Of a DNA stretch of 64,000 nucleotides, positions 15,452-64,000 are shown piece after piece. The position numbers were made by a program, and so were the translations under genes. The stretch lies in NCBI GenBank assembly GCA_002104905.1, contig MCFE01000018.1, positions 182,066 to 246,065 on the forward strand, in the 5' to 3' direction. The notes under the pieces are model-generated. The model was not told where the DNA came from, made no database searches, and was given only the letters and a program-made list of their open reading frames with translations. Each line of letters begins with the position of its first letter. The stretch's first letter is position 1. This DNA comes from Basidiobolus meristosporus CBS 931.73. Taxonomy: Eukaryota > Basidiobolomycota > Basidiobolomycetes > Basidiobolales > Basidiobolaceae.

Positions 15452-15619
15452 TCTGGGTACCTGATGTTTTGGTGGAAATATTTTAAGTAAATTGCAACAA
15501 GGAATTTGGCCAGTATTCTCTAAGATTTGTAGGTAATAATGTAAGTGACCAAGTTAGGTGAATATTTAGCTGGAATAAGGGATTTTTACAACACTCCCAC
15601 TCAACTAAATGCTCATACT
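15452..15619 (-). repeat. Inverted copia fragment (partial LTR plus internal 3' end)
   Basis: Reverse complement of the start of an LTR ('...ttttacaaca') preceded by the polypurine and last internal bases ('ctcccactcaactaaatg'). It lies head to head with the 5' LTR of the element that follows. It is older and more diverged than that element. Confidence 0.8.
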
Positions 15620-54267: not shown

Positions 54268-57200
54268 ATGTACAGAGCAAGTGATAAGGTAAGAGCTATT
54301 AATCATTTGTCATGTATTACGTAGCTCTAAAACTTCTAAAATAATAGTCGAGGTTAGGAGAAAAGCAGAATCAAGAATTGAGGAGTACTGGCATTGGCCC
54401 TCACTTACTCAATACACACGGTCTCCACGAGTTGGGTATCTATGTCAAAGGTCTGCCAATTAGTATGAAAGCCGATGAAATCCGAAAGTATTTTTCTACA
54501 TGGGGACATGTTAGCAGATGTAACGTGATAAACGTTAGGACACAGAGCAGAAACAAAGCCGCTGTAGTTGTATTTAGCCCACCGCCACCTTCTCTAGACT
54601 TTATGAATGAGGGTCTCCAGCCTGCCAACATGGGCAAAGAAAATAGATTTCTCGACATAGATTTTACTACCAAAACTTCAACGCGCATTCAAAGTCAAGA
54701 AAGAGGAGAATACGCGAAAGAATTTTTTCAGTCTGAAGTAACTTGCATCGACATGGGAATATTGATAAACAGCAACAAATTTCTGAGTGTTTGGAGGCCA
54801 TCTGGCAGTTGTACTCTTGAGGTGAATGTGGAGAGACAGCTTATATTTTTCAAATTTAACCACACGAGCGACTATTACAGAATTGGAGTAAGATTCGAAG
54901 ACGTCCGTAACGGTATAATACTGAACCGAGGTGATGAAGATGCGTATTTACTGCACTTCAAAATCGCCCATTGCCCTTACTTGTGGCGGAAACAGGAAAT
55001 GGTTTCTCCATCTTCGGATAGTTGGAGTGAGGAGGATTCGTGGATGCGTGTCCCTTATATTATCGATCAACGGGTCGAAGATAATAACAGAGTTCACTTT
55101 GGTAACTTTTCCGTCTATCGAGTCAATGTTCCAAGCCATAACCAATCGGGTGAATCTTTCCAAGAGGCTCTTGACAATATGACGTGTTGCGGGCTTATAT
55201 TTACCGCTTCCAACTCCACTAGCCCCATCGAAATGAATCAATCGAAACACTCGGTAATTGATATTCACGCATCACTTCCGTTTGAGTTGGCTTACCTGAT
55301 CGAATGCTTAGTCAGTGCGCAGAAACTAACCATGTACAGTTTAACGCAAGAATGGATCACATTTTTGAGTGATCTTGATGTACGGATTGGTAGGAATGTA
55401 CTGATGAGCATGATGATGGCCAAATGCTTTATTGAAGACCCCTTGGCCTACACTCAATCAATTCTACCAGTGCTCGGAATTGATCTCATCGATCTCGCGG
55501 AAACCCCCATGCAAAAATTGTGGATCAACCGGGCATTCGTTACTCCCAGCAAGATCCACCTCTTACCACCATCTTTGGAGCCCTCAAACCGAGTGTTGAG
55601 GCACTTTCATCAATACCGAGAGTACTTCATCCAGGTCACCTTCTCAGAAGAGCGATTTGAGAAGATAGGCCCGAACAGCCAGCTGAATCAAGCCGTTTTC
55701 GACAGTTTTGAGGAAACATTGACTGAAGGATTTCATATTGGCAAGCGACATTATCGCTTCCTAGCTTTTTCATCCACCCAGCTTCGGGAGCATAGCTGTT
55801 GGTTCTTTGCTGATACATCTGAGGGTGTAGATGTAGATTTCATTCGCAAGTGGATGGGCGATTTCAGTGATATTGGTAATATTGCCAAGCGCGCAACAAC
55901 CATGGGCCTGTGCCTTTCCAGCACACGAGCAGTAAAAAGCCTGAGCAAGCAGCAAGTGAAAGAAATTCCGGATATCATGCGCAACGGCCATTCATATTCT
56001 AATGGAGTCGGGCAAATCGCATTGTCATTAGCTGCGGAAATCTCCAACCAGAAGCTGACACCTGGTGCATTTCAGATTCGCTTTGGTGGATACAAGGGCG
56101 TTCTTACGGTCGTACCTGATGATAGGATGGGCGGAAGCCTTGTTCACCTACGCCCAAGCCAAAGATGTTTCAGTTCAGAACATTCCGACTTGGAGATCGT
56201 CCGAACCGCCGAATTTCTTCCAGCTTATCTGAATCGACAAATCATCGCACTGCTGTCTACCATGTGGGTTTCAGATGATGTATTTTTGCAATTGCAAGAT
56301 GATCACTTACGCATAACAGATCAAATCATGAACGACCAAGCACTGGCTTTGAAGTTTTTGGCCCTTCACTACCGTTCGAGCTGGATAGGTGACACATTAG
56401 GAGATATGATCGCTGCAGGTTTCCTAGAGTCTGGTGACACTTTTACCAAATTGCTTCTGGGCTCAATTAGAAGTCAGGCTCTTCGGGATATCAAAGAGCG
56501 CGCCAGAGTTCCTGTCGAACAGGGTGCCAACTTGATTGGTGTCATTGACGACACGAATACTCTGAAGGAAAACCAGATCTTTGTTCGATACACAGATCCC
56601 CAAAACCCTTCTACGGTTCGGAGTTATATAGGCCCGGCGTTGGTTGCTAGAAATCCATATTTGCATCCAGGGGATATGCATATGGTTGAAGCTGTTGATT
56701 GTCCGAAGCTTCATGGACTTGTGAATTGTGTTGCATTCTCTACACGCGGTGCCTATAGCTTACCAAGTCAATGTAATGGTGGCGACCTGGATGGCGACAC
56801 ATATGTGGTTATCTGGGATAAGCGACTATTTCCATACCACAAGGAGTCCCCATTGAGCTACTGCAAACAGGAGGGTGAAACTGTCAAGCCTATCACTACT
56901 AAGGATACCGTGGACTTTTTCCTCAACTTTGTAAAATCCAATAATTTGCCCCAGATTGCCAACGCTCATTTGGCCTGGGCTGACCAGTCTGAAGATATCA
57001 CATTGTCCCCCAGGTGTGTCACCCTGGCTAAACTCCATGCCAAAGCAGTGGATTTCATGAAAACAGGGATTCCGGTTAAGCTGCAGCCAAGCGTGATTCC
57101 GAAGCACTGGCCTGACTATATGAACAAATTACCAAGAAAATCGTACCCTTCCTCGAATGTTCTGGGCCAGATGTTCCGGAGTGATGCCTTAAAACATCAA

Positions 57201-57740
57201 ATATCCGAGTACTCCCTGTCCAATTGCACAGGGGAGATTCACTTTGATGAGAGAATGATGGTGTCGGGATACGAAGAATACTTGGCAGAAGCCAGAAAAC
57301 TGAAGCAGGAATATGACATGACGATCGCCAATATCATGAGTCAGCATGAAATCCAAACAGAAGCTGAATTAATCTCAGGGTGTATTCAATGTATTCCTTC
57401 CTTAGCTAGCCGCAGAAAGGAGAGGTATTTGCTTAAAGAAACTCTCAGTAGTGTCATTGGTGCAGTTTGGAGAGTCTTTCGTGAACGGTTTAATAATGAC
57501 TCTCCAGCAGCACCAGCTGAAGATTATGAGATTAAGGCCACCTTGAATCGAAAAAGAAAGGCCAGCGCTTGGTACTATGTGACGTGTCATCCAACTGAAA
57601 TATTACTACAAAGGAACCAAGAACTTTGCAGTGCTCTGATATGCAATGGTCTCAATGAAGTGACAAGACCAGTTTACATATCTTTCCCTTGGATAGTTCA
57701 CGATATCCTGACGTTGATCTTACAAGAGTCAGTGTTGTGA
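54268..57740 (+). CDS. Cellular RNA-dependent RNA polymerase (RNA silencing), intact
   Basis: Copies single-stranded RNA into dsRNA that Dicer turns into small RNAs (QDE-1/Rdp1/RDR family). An RRM-like fold lies at the N terminus (LGIYVKGLPISMKADEIRKY at residues ~19-38 counting from the codon at 54378, ending VVVFSPP), followed by a long linker and the RdRP domain from about residue 390. Conserved parts: RVPVEQGANLIGVIDDTNTL, RNPYLHPGDMH (His at 763), STRGAYSLPSQCNGG and the catalytic DLDGD at 803-807. The domain runs to ~980, then a helical C terminus. The long frame begins at 54348 without an upstream in-frame ATG. I propose exon 1 54268-54288 (MYRASDK), GTAAGA donor, 59-nt intron to 54347, then exon 2: 1137 aa. 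If not spliced, translation could start at Met 54465, which would cut into the RRM. The only full copy in the window. Stop at 57740, poly(A) signal 38 nt on. Confidence 0.93.
54289..54347 (+). other. Predicted 59-nt intron of the RdRP gene
   Basis: GTAAGA donor, TTCTAAAAT branch-like stretch and AATAG acceptor. Splicing is in phase 0 and removes the in-frame TAG at 54345. It sits between a TATA-preceded ATG and the long frame. Prediction only. Confidence 0.6.
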
Positions 57741-57777
57741 GGTATTATACAATTCTGTCTTCATGTGTATAACAATC

Positions 57778-57783
57778 AATAAA
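57778..57783 (+). terminator. Poly(A) signal of the RdRP gene
   Basis: AATAAA, 38 nt after the stop codon. Confidence 0.65.
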
Positions 57784-58021
57784 TTCGCCTATTAAGAACT
57801 ATTACCCAGTATTAGAAAACCACTTTTCGGAAATTTAGGGGTGCCAATCACAATGAGGAAAAAAATCTGTATTGCAATAAAATTTAATTAAAAGTCAAGC
57901 GCTACAAGGGTAGGTTTATGCAAGTGAATAAAGGGAAATATCAAATTGTGATAGCTTACAAGAAAGGCCACCAAGTCCAAGAGGAGTTAAACAGGGTAAA
58001 GTGGCACTGGAGGGAAAAATA
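57784..58021. other. Last unique sequence before the retroelement chain
   Basis: About 240 bp, AT-rich then purine-rich, no gene. It ends in AGGGTTAGGGGGGGG at 58022, which I read as the position of a former chromosome end. Confidence 0.5.
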
Positions 58022-58033
58022 AGGGTTAGGGGG
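58022..58033 (+). repeat. Interstitial telomeric tract 1
   Basis: AGGGTTAGGGGG immediately before the 3' end of LINE-A. Confidence 0.75.
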
Positions 58034-59455
58034 GGGAGACAGTCACCAACAGGTGAGATCTTTATTTCAGTTGAAACAAAGAAGCCAGCGCTACTGCAGT
58101 AGCTTTGATACAAGAGTGTGTAGTTGAGGGGAATTTGTAGGTAAGTTAATAAGGAGAGATGATAGCTCTTCAGTGCTTAAGACACTTTTCAGTGGGAAGG
58201 GGGGTAGCAAGAGGGGTAGCAATGATATGTGAGCAACATTGATAAGTGGAATATAATAAGGATTGATGTTCATTATAATGGGAGTGTGCTGTTTCAGGTA
58301 TTGCTGCCAGAGGTCTGTCAAGTACTTCAGGTAGGCCAGCTTGGGTTTTTCTGACTGCAGTATATAATGAGCAAACTTCTTGACTTCAGGATCTCCAAGT
58401 ATAGTTCTCCAGCAGGAGCCAGGTGTAGTGTGGTGTGTTCTCTTCCATGCCTTGATCAGTGGGTTGTTGCAGTGGTGAAGCCTGAGATATAATTGTTGTA
58501 AAAATTTGTAATTCCACCTAAATATTCACCTAACTTAGTCACTTAGATCATTTCCCTCAAATCCTAGAGAATACTGACCAAATTCCTTGTCGGGATTTAC
58601 TTAGAATATTTACCCAGAACATGAAAATTCTCAAAGTTGTTCAAACATCCCCAAACTTTGCACACATGTTCTTAGGACCTTCCTTAACCTATTCTACGTG
58701 TTTGTTATGCCAAGACCATGTAGAAGTATAAATACTACTTTTACATTCAATAAATTATTAAGTGAAAACCACATAATCTACTTGTCCTCCCAATCACTTC
58801 CAATATCTCCAAGACTCTTACAACAATAATCTGGTTCTAAGGTAGAGAAGTCTGATCCTGTAGGGCACAAACCCAAAAGCACCAAGAATAGCATGTCTGT
58901 AGGGGCAATCAGGCAGATGAGGCACCAAGGAGGTAATGCACCAGACTGCAAACTTGTCAAGCTTAGTGCAGTCTCTATAAGTAAGAGAGAGAAGTGGTAA
59001 GCCAAATTCCAGGACAGGAAAGACAAACTGCTTGAGTAGAAGGAGGCAGCTGGGAGCTGAAGTTGTAGGAGGAGTAACAGCCAGTAACTTATGGAGTGCC
59101 TGTCTTGCCAGGATAATTCTCTTCTTCAGGTGAGCTCCAGAGTACAGTCCAGTAGGAAGGAAAGGAAAGCCAAGATATGCAGCAGAGACCTGAGCAGGTA
59201 GAGTGCAGTTCTTTAAGTTGATAGGACAACTCAAAGGAACTGTCTTTGCAATGGAAAGCTTGAGATTATTCTTCTGCAGATACTGATGGATGGTCTGGGA
59301 GTCTTGCAGCACTTTGGAGGAGGATATTCTGATGTCATCAGCAAAGAGGGTAACCAGACAGTCTGCTCAGAGTCTTAGGAAGTCATTCAGGAAGACGGCA
59401 AACAGTATAGGACCAAGCACAGAGCCTTGAACTACTCCATTAGGGACAACCCCTA
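58034..59455 (-). mobile_element. LINE-A: 5'-truncated telomeric non-LTR retrotransposon
   Basis: Minus strand, 3' end at 58034 against a telomeric tract. 3' UTR 58034-58090 with AATAAAG and the TCACC-AACA-GGTGA complement hairpin. ORF2 C-terminal part from 58091 up; the RT palm is recognisable by QGSVLGPILF (59433-59404) and the catalytic FADD box (59345-59331), then AYLGFPFLPTGLYSG and the C-terminal TPGSCWRTILGDP region. A TGA between the RT motifs and a frameshift make it inactive. Interrupted by a solo copia LTR at 58494-58825. Truncated within RT at ~59455; no endonuclease part present. Confidence 0.88.
58494..58825 (+). repeat. Solo copia LTR inside LINE-A, perfect target duplication
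   Basis: 332 bp, TGTTGTAAAA...TTACAACA, flanked by ATAAT at 58489-58493 and 58826-58830. The empty site is visible in LINE-F (63108 region, 'gagatataatctgg'), confirming the insertion point. Confidence 0.95.
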
Positions 59456-60374
59456 TTTACTCCTCATCTGTTATCTTGTCAACCTCCTCTTCATCTTTGT
59501 GCATTAGAGATCCACTGCCTTGCACTTCATGTAATTGGCTCAAGTACCAATCATCTTGCTCTTGAAGTTGTAATGAAATTTGTACTTTGGATGCTTCATC
59601 TACCAATGTATGCATCTTCTTGCCAAATAAGCCAATCTTACAAGTTTGACTGTCAATTACACCCTGAGCTTCAATGGAATCTTGCATGACAAACTGGTTA
59701 CTAGAAATATTATTTGGCTGATTCACCCTCCAAACTCTGGCCTTTGCTCAGATTTCTACATAGGGATTCCACCAATTGTTGGCAATGATCACCGCCAATG
59801 CTATCTGCAAATTTAATCCAAATGCCACTTTTTATGTTGATCAGTAACACACAAATCTTGCCCTCCAGAACTGGCAATGCAAATGTATCTATACTGCTCT
59901 TTTGCATCCAAACTGGGGTGGAGCTGGTAATCTTCAGATGCTCAATGATCTGCTCCCTCAAATGGTAAGCCATTATATCAAGCATCAGATTAAACCCAGA
60001 AATAATAATAACATGTGCATGCTCCTTATTTTCTTGGATTTCAAGCAGGATTTCCAAGATTTTCCAAGTTTTGCCACTATGCTTGTTCACAGTGTTGCTG
60101 CTTACACCAGTGAGGAAATCTTGGATCAATAGCCTGTTGGAGTCCTCTAATGCAAGCCCTCTTTGGGCAATTGCAGGGGCATCTTTGGTGCATATGGCAG
60201 TTGGTGAAGAAGTAGATGGAACATTGGATCAACTGTCAACCTCTTTGCTATTAATCTCATGAAGTTGCTCCTCAACCTCCACCTCCACCTCAACCACAAC
60301 CACCCCAAGATCCTCATCAATCTCAGGTAGAAAATCATCCTCTATCATCTTGACATCTTGGACAATGCTAACAC
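59456..60374 (-). pseudogene. SNF2-family helicase C-terminal fragment trapped in the chain
   Basis: Minus frame 60129-59710 reads HSGKTWKILEILLEIQENKE, then FNLMLDIMAYHLREQI, SSIDTFALPVLEGKICVLLI and NIKSGIWIKFADSIGGD. This follows the helicase C-terminal lobe of SNF2 ATPases (SGK.xxLxxLLxxLxxxGxKVLIFSQFTxMLDIL, then STKAGGxGINLxxAD), with the GGLG-N turn and the QxxxRxxRIGQ motif degraded. An acidic stretch (IEDDFLPEIDEDLG, VEVEVEVEE) precedes it at 60340-60260. There is no DEAH lobe. It lies between LINE-A and LINE-B with no telomeric tract on its left, so it came in together with LINE-A or by break repair. Helicase assignment by motif reading only. Confidence 0.6.
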
Positions 60375-60386
60375 TTAGGGTTATGG

Positions 60387-60935
60387 GACAGAAAGTCACC
60401 AAGTTGGTGAAATCTTTATTAGAGTCAAGAACTGATCTAAGTACAAATAAAGACACCAGTTGAGAAGTCAAGAACCTCTTTAATAAGTATTCTAATTTTT
60501 GTTTTGTTTCATCTCTAATGTTTGCTTCAAAAAAGTAAAGCTCATCAGGGGTAAATATAAAATTCAAGGGTTTTGGGGGAAGTACAAATTGTAGATGTTT
60601 CTGATCAATATAATCCAAGACTGGAACCCAGCCTAGGATTAGGTGTAGTAGCAAAGGTGTGGGGACTTGTAAGTAGCTCTGCCACATAGATCTTAAATGG
60701 TCCTTGGGCAGTAGTCCTGGTTTCTCAGATTTTTAAAGTTTTGAAGCAAGCTCTGTTACTACAGCAGAGCCAACTAAGGTGTGCCAGCAAGAAGATTTCA
60801 GGGAGGAGTTAGATTTAAGCCATTGTTTGATAGAGGGGTTATATGATTTCTGAAGCTTCACTAGGAAGGAAGCATGGAGATAGACCATTCAGATTTGGTA
60901 TAGGTAGAACCCAAAGGCTATATTAGTTGGGCTAT
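60387..60935 (-). mobile_element. LINE-B: divergent 5'-truncated telomeric LINE
   Basis: Minus strand. Telomere-like TTAGGGTTATGG (60375-60386) lies at the 3' end, then the hairpin TCACCAAGTTGGTGA complement and AATAAAG. The ORF2 C-terminus reads NPSIKQWLKSNSSLKSSCWH, then (after a stop) KSEKPGLL and LRSMWQSYLQVPTPLLLHLI, matching NPLIKAWKR...GSCWRTIL...QSEKPKLAYL and LTDLWQQYLQQHTP of LINE-F. About half the residues differ, so it is a separate subfamily. Confidence 0.82.
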
Positions 60936-61046
60936 GGTTAGGGTTTTGAGTCAGTCACTAACAGGCAAAATCTTTATTTCAGTTGAATCAAAGAAGCCAG
61001 CACTACTTAGGGAGGGAAAGTCACCAAGTTGGTGAAATCTTAGGGG
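60936..61046 (-). mobile_element. Two very short LINE 3' tails separated by telomeric bases
   Basis: GGTTAGGGTT, then a 61-bp tail (60947-61007, LINE-A type, through 'gaagccagcactac'), TTAGGGA, then a ~26-bp tail with the TCACCAAGTTGGTGA hairpin, then TTAGGGGG. Such short pieces are the expected outcome of abortive reverse transcription from the 3' end. Confidence 0.8.
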
Positions 61047-61510
61047 GAGGAAAGTCACCAAGTGGTGAAATCTTTATTCACTTATGACAACTATTTAAAG
61101 AAGCCAAGTTAATCTGAAGTTGTTCCTAGAAAGCTAAGTCTGAGAGATATCTTCCTGGTAAGCCAGGTCTGAGAGTTGAGAAGCTGAGTGGTACTGTATT
61201 TCCTAGTTAGCTAGGTCTGAGAGAGGTTTCCTGGAAAGCCAGGCCTGAGAAGTGAGAATCTGAATATATCTGAGCTAAGTTATACTGGTTTGCGGTAGCT
61301 GAATTTTGGCTGGAATGGCCAGTAGACTGGGGGAACTGAGAGGAATTTCTGAGCAATCACTGGCCAAATTTACTATGCAAATCTGACCAATTAGCATTTC
61401 AAGGATTTCAGCCAATCAGAGCCTTTACTTTGCCCAATGGCTGATCAAGCCATCTCTCAATGAGCACACATCAATTTATTGATCAAATTTTGCTGGATCC
61501 AGGATTTGAA
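61047..61510 (-). mobile_element. SINE-D: 5'-truncated copy of the telomeric SINE
   Basis: Same family as 63286-63803. Minus strand with the shared 3' tail (TCACC-AAGT-GGTGA stem-loop and AATAAAG). The body contains a repeated CTAGGTCTGAGAG-type motif. It is cut inside the tRNA-like B box (GGATTTGAA retained on the plus strand), where the next telomeric tract begins. Confidence 0.85.
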
Positions 61511-61522
61511 GGGTTAGGGGGG
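61511..61522 (+). repeat. Interstitial telomeric tract
   Basis: GGGTTAGGGGGG between SINE-D and LINE-E. Confidence 0.8.
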
Positions 61523-61608
61523 ATGATAATCACCAGAGGGTGAAATCTTTATTTAATTCATAAATAAAGAAGCCAAGTTGGAATATGGATATCTGGAATG
61601 CAGAGAGC

Positions 61609-62409
61609 CTACAAGATAAACTTGGACTTTGCTGTTTCCCAAATATCCTCAATATCAAAGTCTAGAGGAGAATGTAGCAATACTGCTTGTTCACTGTAGT
61701 GTTTCTTGAGAAAGTTTGTGACTTGAAGGGAAGGAGAGTTTTTCAACAAGCTGGTAAATCTTTTGAGGAGTTCTTTTTCCAGAGAGAATGGCACAAAGAG
61801 TGGAATGTCTAAATGATGTCTGAATATGTGCTCTGAGAGCTCCCAATCCAGCATATTCTTGACTTCTTCTGTAAAATCTTCAACAATATCCTTGTCAAGA
61901 ATAACTTCTAAGAGATCCCTGGCAATGTACTGAATGTTAATAATCTTGGGCATATGAATACCTAGGTCCTTGAGATAGTTTCTTTGTTCTGAAATTGGGA
62001 GATAACCAGCATTTCTGAAATAGCAAACAGTCCAGTTGGCAGTGGGAGGAGTATCAGGGCTGACTGGAAATCTTCTTCTGGCTTTAGAGTGTACTGGCTT
62101 AGGAGACTGTCTTGATGGAAGGGCAGCTGGCTTTGCATGAGCTTGAAGTGCTTGGGAGTAGGTTTGGGTATGGGGAGCAGGAGTTGCTGGTTGCTGAGAG
62201 TGTTCAGAATGACTGGAAGAAGAGCTGGGTGAGGAGCTGCAAGGTAAAGAAGAAGCTGAAAGAGAAGTAGAGAGTGCTGGGTGAAGTTCAGAAAGAGTTT
62301 TGAAAAGAACTTGGATCTGAGATTTCAACATGGAGTTTTCAGCTTCAAGAAGAGAAACTCTTTGTTCAAGGTAAGAAGTCTGTAAAGAGTGAAAGTTGGG
62401 TAAAGACAT
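61609..62409 (-). CDS. LINE ORF1 protein (RNA-binding gag-like), intact
   Basis: 266 aa, ATG at 62409. ORF1 proteins of non-LTR retrotransposons bind their RNA and form the ribonucleoprotein used in retrotransposition. Residues ~14-42 form a leucine-heptad coiled coil (LEQRVSLLEAENSMLKSQI), typical of ORF1 trimerisation. 47-75 is Ser-rich and low complexity; 75-120 is Pro/Ala/Arg-rich and basic (SKARRRFPVSP). 125-200 has the beta-alpha pattern of an RRM-like or ORF1 core (ANWTVCYFRNAGYLPISEQR, LGIHMPKIINIQYI, LLEVILDKDIVEDF). No zinc knuckle. No frame damage, so the copy is young. The function is inferred from domain layout and element context, since no ORF1 family match could be tested. Confidence 0.75.
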   Translation of the reverse strand: MSLPNFHSLQTSYLEQRVSLLEAENSMLKSQIQVLFKTLSELHPALSTSLSASSLPCSSSPSSSSSHSEHSQQPATPAPHTQTYSQALQAHAKPAALPSRQSPKPVHSKARRRFPVSPDTPPTANWTVCYFRNAGYLPISEQRNYLKDLGIHMPKIINIQYIARDLLEVILDKDIVEDFTEEVKNMLDWELSEHIFRHHLDIPLFVPFSLEKELLKRFTSLLKNSPSLQVTNFLKKHYSEQAVLLHSPLDFDIEDIWETAKSKFIL

Positions 62410-62633
62410 AGAGGATGTAGATAATAAGAAGAAAGGAGTAGTTGGGGTGGGAGGGTGGGAAAATAGTTAAGAAGAAAAGAGAAGAAAGATCTGAAATTGA
62501 AAATCTCAGAATTTATAGATGGATGGACAAGGGTAGAGGAGAGATTAATCCAGGGTTAGGGAAAAATAGTTAAGAAGAAAAGAGAGGAAAGATCTGAAAT
62601 TGAAAATCTCAGAATTTATAGATGGATGGACAA
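62410..62633 (-). repeat. Tandem 103-bp repeats in the 5' UTR of LINE-E
   Basis: Two units starting at 62461 and 62564 (AAATAGTTAAGAAGAAAAGA..., then ATCTCAGAATTTATAGATGG), the second followed directly by GGTTAGGGTTAGGG. Tandem 5' UTR monomers often carry the internal promoter of LINEs, and extra copies protect the promoter from 5' loss. A promoter role here is inference. Confidence 0.8.
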
Positions 62634-62650
62634 GGTTAGGGTTAGGGGGG
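62634..62650 (+). repeat. Interstitial telomeric tract
   Basis: GGTTAGGGTTAGGGGGG between LINE-E and LINE-F. Confidence 0.88.
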
Positions 62651-63258
62651 AGACAGTCACCAACAGGTGAAATCTTTATTTCAGTTGAAACAAAGAAGCC
62701 AGCGCTACTGTTGTAGCTTTGATACAAGAGTGTGTAGCTGAGGGGAATTTGTAGGTAAATTAACAAGAAGTGATGATAGTTCTTCAGTGCTCAAGACACT
62801 GTTCAGAGGAAAGGGGGGTAGCAAGAGAGGTAAGAATGACTTGTGAACAACATTAATGAGGGGAATGTGATAAGGATTGATATTCATCATAAAGGGAGTG
62901 TGCTGCTGCAGATATTGCTGCCAAAGGTCTGTCAAGTACTTCAGGTAGGCCAGCTTGGGTTTTTCTGATTGCAGTATATAATGAGCAAACCTCTTGACTT
63001 CAGGATCTCCAAGTATAGTTCTCCAGCAGGAGCCAGGTGTAGTGTGGTGTGTTCTCTTCCATGCCTTGATCAGTGGGTTGTTGCAGTGGTGAAGTCTGAG
63101 ATATAATCTGGTTCTAAGGTAGAGAAGTCTGATCTTGTAGGGCATAAACCCAAAAGCACCAAGAATAGCATGCCTGTAGGGGCATTCAGGCAAATGAGGC
63201 ACCAAGGAGGTAATGCACCATACTGCAAACTTGTCAAGTTTAGTGCAGTCTTTAGAAG
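62651..63258 (-). mobile_element. LINE-F: 5'-truncated LINE, ORF2 C-terminus open
   Basis: Minus strand, 3' UTR 62651-62704. The ORF2 frame is open from the truncation (63257) to the stop at 62705, about 184 codons: KDCTKLDKFAVWCITSLVPH, then TPGSCWRTILGDPEVKRFAH, SEKPKLAYLKYLTDLWQQYL and LSTEELSSLLVNLP near the end. It is nearly identical to LINE-A where both are present and holds the empty site of the solo LTR. No stops, so it is recent. Confidence 0.9.
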
Positions 63259-63285
63259 TTAGGGTTAGGGTTAGGGTTAGGGGGG
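63259..63285 (+). repeat. Interstitial telomeric tract of four TTAGGG units
   Basis: Four exact TTAGGG repeats and extra G's between LINE-F and SINE-G, the longest tract inside the chain. Confidence 0.95.
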
Positions 63286-63803
63286 AGGAAAGTCACCAAG
63301 TGGTGAAATCTTTATTTACTTATGACAAGTATCTAAAGAAGCCAAGTTAATCTTAAGTAATTCCTAGAAAGCTAGGTCTGAGAGATATCTTCCTGGTAAG
63401 CTAGGTCTGAGAGTTGAGAAGCTGTGTGGTACTACATTTCCTAGTTAGCTAGGTCTGAGAGAGGTTTCCTGGAAAGCCAGGCCTGAGAAGTGAGAATCTG
63501 AATATATCTGAGCTAAGGAATACTGGTTTGCGGTAGCTGAATTGTGGCCGGAATGGCCAGTAGACTGGGGGAACTAAGATGAATTTCTGGGCAATCACTG
63601 GCCAAATTTACTAGGCAAATCTGGCCAATCAGCATTTCAAGGATTTCAGCCAATCAGAGCCTTTACTTTGCCCGATGGTTGATCAAGCCATCTCCCAATG
63701 AGCACACACCAATTTATTAATCAAATTTTTGCTGGATCCAGGATTTGAACCCACAACCATGGGTATGGAAGGGTTAGGGATAACCACAAGGCTAAGTGTT
63801 CTT
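63286..63803 (-). mobile_element. SINE-G: tRNA-derived SINE with LINE-type telomeric tail
   Basis: Minus strand, about 518 bp. The head lies at the telomere side. On the minus strand it reads TTAGCCTTGTGG (tRNA A-box form TRGCNNAGTGG with one change), 23 nt of linker and then GGTTCAAATCC (perfect B box), followed by a CTGGATCC stem. The body (63300-63740) matches SINE-D. The 3' end has AATAAAG, TCACC-AAGT-GGTGA stem-loop and the C-run joining CCCTAA, as in the LINEs. SINEs that borrow a LINE 3' tail are known; use of it at telomeres is the unusual point. The only RNA polymerase III-type promoter I find in the window. Confidence 0.82.
63715..63803 (-). promoter_or_regulatory. RNA polymerase III A and B boxes of SINE-G
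   Basis: B box GGTTCAAATCC complement at 63742-63752 region; A box TAGCCTTGTGG complement at about 63784-63797. The A-to-B distance (~35 nt) fits a tRNA gene head. Confidence 0.7.
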
Positions 63804-63805
63804 GG

Positions 63806-63846
<41 letters not shown>

Positions 63847-64000
63847 GGTTAGGGTTAGGGTTAGGGTTAGGGTTAGGGTTAGGGTTAGGGTTAGGGTTAG
63901 GGTTAGGGTTAGGGTTAGGGTTAGGGTTAGGGTTAGGGTTAGGGTTAGGGTTAGGGTTAGGGTTAGGGTTAGGGTTAGGGTTAGGGTTAGGGTTAGGGTT
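63804..64000 (+). repeat. Telomere, (TTAGGG)n
   Basis: About 33 units of TTAGGG to the end of the window, with one TTTAGGG variant near 63823. G-strand reads 5' to 3' toward the right, so the right edge is the chromosome end. Confidence 0.99.

Follow-up and report, generated by a model that had tools for sequence, protein, structure and literature searches.

Telomere-associated chains of LINEs, a SINE and an ORF1-only element in Basidiobolus meristosporus

How does a chromosome end come to consist of retroelements that all point in one direction, each set against telomere repeats? The final 6 kb of the window (the 64-kb stretch analysed here, which is the end of contig C402 in the 89-Mb, 1,311-contig assembly of Basidiobolus meristosporus CBS 931.73, a genome obtained by PacBio sequencing according to excerpts of PMC7466969) is a head-to-tail chain of non-long-terminal-repeat (non-LTR) elements, all on the minus strand, followed by a terminal telomere array. 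We conclude, with a probability of roughly 0.9, that these are telomere-dedicated elements whose reverse transcription is primed on the telomeric G-strand, and the results suggest that retroelements and telomerase take turns building chromosome ends.

Organization of the terminal chain

The chain contains eight minus-strand element 3' ends, and TTAGGG lies beside every one of them (58026, 60375, 60938, 61007, 61040, 61514, 62636/62642, and 63259-63282). Both the one-directional arrangement on TTAGGG and the 5' truncation, which had been described from the letters of this stretch without database searches (hereafter, the sequence-only reading), were borne out. The components, which include long and short interspersed nuclear elements (LINEs and SINEs), fragments encoding the reverse transcriptase (RT), and an element with a protein like that of the first open reading frame (ORF1), are as follows.

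58026-58031, plus strand: TTAGGG at the join between chromosomal DNA and LINE-A
58032-59444, minus strand: LINE-A, a 5'-truncated copy of the LINE-F family with the C-terminal part of the RT and the 3' end, interrupted at 58494-58825 and alignable with longer copies as far as 59444
58494-58825, no strand assigned: solo-LTR-like 332-bp TG...CA repeat within LINE-A, with a 5-bp duplication (ATAAT), outside the telomeric system
60375-60380, plus strand: TTAGGG ahead of LINE-B
60381-60937, minus strand: LINE-B, a 5'-truncated copy of a second LINE family
60938-60943, plus strand: TTAGGG
60944-61006, minus strand: short 3' tail of a LINE-F-type element
61007-61039, minus strand: TTAGGG and a 27-nt 3' tail of a LINE-B-type element
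61040-61513, minus strand: SINE-D, with TTAGGG at its 3' end
61514-62635, minus strand: TTAGGG and 'LINE-E' (ORF1-only; coiled-coil protein at 61609-62466; two 5' repeat units of ~100 bp)
62636-62647, plus strand: (TTAGGG)2
62648-63258, minus strand: LINE-F, 5'-truncated, with the C-terminal part of the RT and the 3' end
63259-63282, plus strand: (TTAGGG)4
63283-63803, minus strand: SINE-G, full length, with an A/B-box-like 5' head and a 3' hairpin and C-run in common with the LINEs
63804-64000, plus strand: terminal telomere array, reaching the contig end

LINE-A and LINE-F share 92% identity over 472 nt, and SINE-D and SINE-G share 94% over 473 nt. A degenerate G-run follows the TTAGGG at LINE-B and at the first short tail. 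The region between LINE-A and LINE-B (59445-60374) contains open frames and belongs to none of the identified families; the two of its frames that were tried gave no Pfam match. Part of this region recurs in the opposite orientation at L069:8529-8725, beside a SINE.

Element families

Three kinds of elements are present, namely LINEs with an RT (at least two families), an ORF1-only element, and a SINE. The LINEs have two ORFs, with an APE-type endonuclease preceding the RT, and copies with open ORFs were found, including a longer relative of LINE-B (L072:5186-9859) in which both are open. The endonuclease retains the APE-type fold and most of the motifs, with the TRAS1 endonuclease among its best fold matches, and in each of the four sequences covering motif II its glutamate is replaced by aspartate. 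Neither of the two ORF2 proteins contains the CCHC or RHD/RPD restriction-like endonuclease patterns after the RT. A CRE-type element, i.e. a member of the clade that includes MoTeR, FoTeR, and Cnl1 (from Cryptococcus), was rejected on the basis of motifs and fold. Related RTs recovered in protein searches are nearly all without a name. Between the LINE-F copies in L071 and L073 there are 11 differences in ORF1, 7 of them at third positions, and 15 in ORF2 (12 at third positions); the excess of third positions is weaker between L071 and part of L072 (6 of 12). The 5' region of LINE-F holds (TTAGGG)2 in both copies (L071:9519-9530 and L073:9599-9610).

'LINE-E', which the sequence-only reading took for a LINE, proved to be a different kind of element: it is 1,116 nt long (61520-62635), lacks an RT, and encodes only an ORF1-like protein of 285 amino acids, which shows 30% identity over 155 amino acids to the C-terminal part of the LINE-F ORF1 protein (E = 4e-19). 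It reaches its own 5' repeat units; tandem 5' units of ~100 bp are found in both LINE-F and LINE-E. The TTAGGG at 62556 lies inside such a unit, being exact in L053 and carrying one change in L010 and L019, and LINE-E therefore extends to 62635. Further copies are found in L010 (positions 1-1068) and L017 (positions 1-952, where the end of the locus is reached). Several consecutive LINE-E 5' units form a variable tandem array at L053:438-969.

The sense strand of the SINE carries an A-like box (TAGCCTTGTGG) at position 10 and a B-like box (GGTTCAAATCC) at position 53. These boxes have no ARAGORN or Rfam support, and searches for a tRNA (ARAGORN) or Rfam origin of the SINE head found none. SINE copies also contain an internal TTAGGG ~29 nt from the 5' end.

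A 3' module shared by the three kinds of elements

Eight 3' tails were aligned (those of LINE-F, two SINEs, two LINE-E types, LINE-B, and a tail type H represented by L032 and L060), and all eight contain a common module, AATAAAGATTTCACC-loop-GGTGA followed by a C-run, so that the SINE has its 3' end in common with the LINEs. The C-run is complementary to the telomere repeat, and there is no poly(A). Tail type H is found behind a SINE body in L032 and behind an ORF1-like frame in L060, the latter sharing 45% identity over 183 amino acids with the LINE-E protein. When five tails were folded, two hairpins were predicted in four of them (z-scores from -2.4 to -3.8), and the minimum-energy fold of the LINE-B tail was different (z = -2.0). 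No Rfam match, including hammerhead ribozymes, was obtained in 57700-63850 up to E = 1, a search that divergent ribozymes can escape.

Location and orientation in the genome

The hairpin pattern GTCACCAASWGGTGAAATC gave 1,073 forward and 82 reverse matches (1,155), and a wider pattern that includes other families gave 1,517 and 140 (1,657); the reversed-pattern control gave 0 in each case. Because of these controls and the presence of the same families on dozens of contigs, chance or an assembly artefact was rejected as an explanation for the chain. Junctions and locations were taken from the first 100 listed sites of the GTCACCAASWGGTGAAATC pattern, which fall on 34 contigs, all with sizes looked up; the TTAGGG rate is that of this sample, as genome-wide pattern counts score double repeats twice. 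A perfect TTAGGG was found within 14 nt of 85 of the 100 listed sites; many of the other 15 have TAGGG, AGGG, or a G-run, and some are without telomeric bases. On contigs >50 kb (n = 13), all 36 listed sites are located within 18.3 kb of the contig end faced by their 5' side (9.7% expected per site; sites sharing a contig are not independent), and with the wider pattern the same was true of 37 of 37 sites on 11 contigs, within 22.2 kb. The search of chromosome ends for these 3' sequences, which the sequence-only reading had proposed, thus bore out its expectation. Among contigs C1-C114, the motif is present on 17 of the 19 that were shown to bear telomeres, C35 and C81 being without it (Fisher p = 4e-9, with copies not independent). 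Similarly, 28 of 30 LINE-F loci (the cut-out loci of 41 match rows, 11 rows being outside the count) are no more than 15.2 kb from the end that they face.

These distributions bear on another explanation, that ordinary LINEs and SINEs pile up at ends where insertion does no harm. Subtelomeres gather transposons in many fungi (PMC12857005), and LINE-A carries a solo-LTR-like insert, both of which are in its favour. The single orientation, the rate of TTAGGG junctions, and the fact that none of the 36 listed sites on contigs >50 kb is a dispersed copy all speak against it, and we give this explanation almost no weight.

Telomeric 18-mers are distributed very unevenly in the assembly (8,002 forward vs 103 reverse), with arrays almost solely at contig 3' ends, which is probably a trait of the assembler, with sequence dropped at contig starts. 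Telomere-array starts number 326 + 4, and one contig can hold several; this is a large number of chromosome ends for an 89-Mb assembly.

Junctions and the proposed mechanism

In total, 159 distinct 3' junctions were collected from 67 loci and the window, and 158 of them contain a G-run of 3-10 G. The runs vary in length, as would fit GGG pairing with the C-run in more than one register, and homopolymer sequencing errors may contribute. The telomeric spacers hold about one repeat, with two repeats or fewer at 149 of 158 junctions, whereas the terminal arrays are 79-238 nt long (median, 201 nt) in those that end a contig (19 of 21). This difference implies either that elements were added to nearly bare ends or that long spacers have been lost. 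Six junctions (L028, L032, L053, two in L067, and L072; inspected by eye) have neither TTAGGG nor TAGGG at the join, and a few elements therefore sit on ends lacking telomere repeats. Only these six are counted from a first score of 'less than one repeat' at 25 of 158 junctions, of which 14 read TAGGG and 4 were mis-scored.

At the other end of the elements, counted by eye, 20 of 31 full-length SINE 5' ends are in the register GGTT|AGGG and 4 read GGTT|GGG; this search demanded a G after TTCTT and missed at least two copies reading TTCTTAGGG. Where LINE-F runs into telomere repeats, its 5' end reads AAAGAGGG, with a terminal GGG. Telomerase is encoded in this genome, as the telomerase RNA-binding domain (PF12009) scored above the cut-off twice on C880, in two separate stretches; one has an internal stop, perhaps an intron. 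Together with the terminal arrays, this supports the earlier claim that telomere repeats cap the elements.

Priming on the G-strand followed by capping by telomerase is favoured because the geometry, the 3' module, the junctions, and the 5' ends all fit it. In such a cycle, the LINE RT would bind the shared 3' hairpin module, and the C-run that terminates the RNA would base-pair with GGG on the telomeric G-strand. Where a chromosome end is short or broken, its free 3' end would then prime reverse transcription, laying the element down with its 3' end inward, and synthesis would halt early, leaving a 5' truncation, or continue to the 5' end of the RNA. The new 3' end, GGTT for the SINE or GGG for LINE-F, could be extended by telomerase, which would add TTAGGG and allow the cycle to repeat. 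We infer the pairing of the C-run, the movement of the SINE and the ORF1-only element by LINE proteins, and the hand-over to telomerase from these features.

End addition or insertion into an array

Of the end-addition scheme in the sequence-only reading, the telomeric location, the orientation, the junctions, and the capping stood; its choice of the overhang over a nick in an array as primer did not reach the same footing, and we put the use of the natural chromosome end (a free 3' end), rather than an endonuclease nick, at even odds. The competing explanation is insertion into an existing telomere array, as proposed for MoTeR, FoTeR, TRAS, and SART: the endonuclease nicks the G-strand of a telomere repeat, and long internal tracts are later broken, leaving one-repeat spacers. 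The LINEs have kept their APE endonuclease, and the fragile long tracts of MoTeR provide a precedent (excerpts of PMC7367193); for these two reasons array insertion is nearly as likely as end addition, and we place it a little short of an even chance. It is less easily reconciled with the six junctions at which no TTAGGG or TAGGG is found, or with the aspartate in place of the motif II glutamate.

Several observations weigh against the end-addition reading. The LINEs retain an APE endonuclease fold with most of its motifs, for which end-priming alone has no need. Short spacers can stem from the breakage of longer internal tracts, according to work on MoTeR (excerpts of PMC7367193). Of 11 junctions initially regarded as near-zero telomeric, 4 have a repeat slightly further in and L012 reads CTAGGG, which weakens the case for end priming. 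The 5' end of LINE-B is GGC, outside the GGG/GGTT rule. Since nearly all telomeres in the assembly are at contig 3' ends, the sampling of left ends is thin. The sequence-only reading expected most copies at ends and in the same orientation; two of the 30 LINE-F loci do not fit: a copy on C558 is located mid-contig, still on two telomere repeats and beside another family, and one at C726:58671 faces away from the nearest end. Finally, sequential addition predicts that distal copies are younger, and no age gradient was detected along the chains (8 distal copies younger, 7 older, and 2 ties; Spearman p = 0.42).

A more complete form of the end-addition scheme, in which both element ends are tuned to the telomere, the G-overhang primes without a nick, elements alternate with telomerase at most ends, and telomere-less ends are healed, is offered tentatively, at odds distinctly below even.

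Copying history of the chains

Forty-seven SINE copies of at least 430 nt, obtained from 35 fetched loci and the window, show a median divergence of 0.8% from the majority sequence, in a sample that leans to young copies because the loci were mostly chosen as best matches. Among the 33 copies with a neighbour on the same contig, the nearest relative is on that contig in only 3, indicating that the chains were built from separate events and not from local duplications; tandem duplication of SINEs is accordingly disfavoured. In the five 10-kb stretches that were read, the family order, the truncation points, and the spacers all differ.

The same data bear on the possibility that the chains spread mostly by recombination, i.e. 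by break-induced copying between ends or from circles, with little retrotransposition. Such a process has been proposed for some MoTeR arrays (excerpts of PMC7367193), and the many telomere-array starts as well as the inverted chain on C726 and the internal chain on C558 would be in keeping with it. The varied composition of the five stretches and the rarity of same-contig relatives run counter to it, and the open-ORF LINEs and the low divergence of the SINEs point to recent copying. We therefore regard spread by recombination as improbable.

Neighbouring features

The gene nearest the telomeric chain encodes an RNA-dependent RNA polymerase with an RRM domain (54348-57740) and ends at 57740; its closest named paralogues, at 73-74% identity, are from the same strain, Basidiobolus meristosporus CBS 931.73. 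A silencing-type gene thus adjoins telomeric transposons, which may be a coincidence. Further copies of the 332-bp TG...CA repeat occur in the window at 15615, 19048, 21520, 21972, 25515, and 26905.

Comparison with other telomeric retroelements

No description of this system was found in the open-licence papers searched for Basidiobolus telomeres or retrotransposons and for telomeric SINEs, in line with the earlier suggestion of an undescribed family. MoTeR of Magnaporthe oryzae is likewise fungal and resembles the present elements in geometry, short tracts, truncation, and a common 3' sequence: its 5' end lies toward the chromosome end, short TTAGGG tracts separate 5'-truncated elements, and MoTeR2 has the 3' sequence of MoTeR1 (excerpts of PMC7367193). 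FoTeRs of Fusarium oxysporum have tandem repeats upstream (excerpts of PMC12857005), which resemble the 5' unit arrays of LINE-E. MoTeR, FoTeR, and Cnl1 group with CRE/SLACS and carry a restriction-like endonuclease after the RT (excerpts of PMC12857005), whereas the elements described here have an APE endonuclease before the RT and a separate ORF1, and comprise several families, an ORF1-only element, and a SINE.

In the terminons (Athena elements) of bdelloid rotifers, a structured RNA 3' end is followed by a telomere-complementary stretch, and truncated copies lie head to tail with short telomeric stretches (excerpts of PMC6431247). The same 3' layout and 5'-truncated head-to-tail arrays are seen here, and by analogy terminons are the closest parallel for a structured RNA end that would pair with the overhang. 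They have a Penelope-type RT, no such endonuclease, and a hammerhead ribozyme fold; the present system has a LINE-type RT and an APE endonuclease, and gave no Rfam match up to E = 1 in the stretch scanned.

The likeness to TRAS and SART of Bombyx (R1 clade) drawn in the sequence-only reading holds for the telomere-repeat target and the APE type of the endonuclease but not for the tail, which is poly(A) in TRAS/SART and a hairpin with a C-run here. Accurate retrotransposition of SART1 requires a long poly(A) tail (excerpts of PMC7265360), and TRAS and SART insert in opposite orientations (excerpts of PMC10088271). In Drosophila, too, several elements (HeT-A, TART, and TAHRE) cooperate and are chained head to tail. 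The only protein encoded by HeT-A is Gag/ORF1, and in this respect it resembles LINE-E. Drosophila is without telomerase, whereas the present genome has both a telomerase gene and TTAGGG caps. UnaL2 and UnaSINE are a LINE/SINE pair with a common 3' tail; they share a 3' hairpin in the same manner as the LINEs and the SINE described here but differ in location, being non-telomeric.

The fungal telomeric LINEs that we found described (MoTeR, FoTeR, and Cnl1) represent one restriction-endonuclease clade. The B. meristosporus system, by contrast, seems to have an APE-type origin of its own, in a fungus of an early-diverging lineage, and it comprises several families together with a SINE and an ORF1-only partner. 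With more than 1,000 junctions available in a single genome, the rules of telomere priming can be read, and end addition vs array insertion becomes directly testable in a fungus that has telomerase. If the tentative scheme of nick-free priming in alternation with telomerase is true, this fungus would possess a SINE specific to telomeres, and a division of labour like that of HeT-A would have evolved in it separately from Drosophila.

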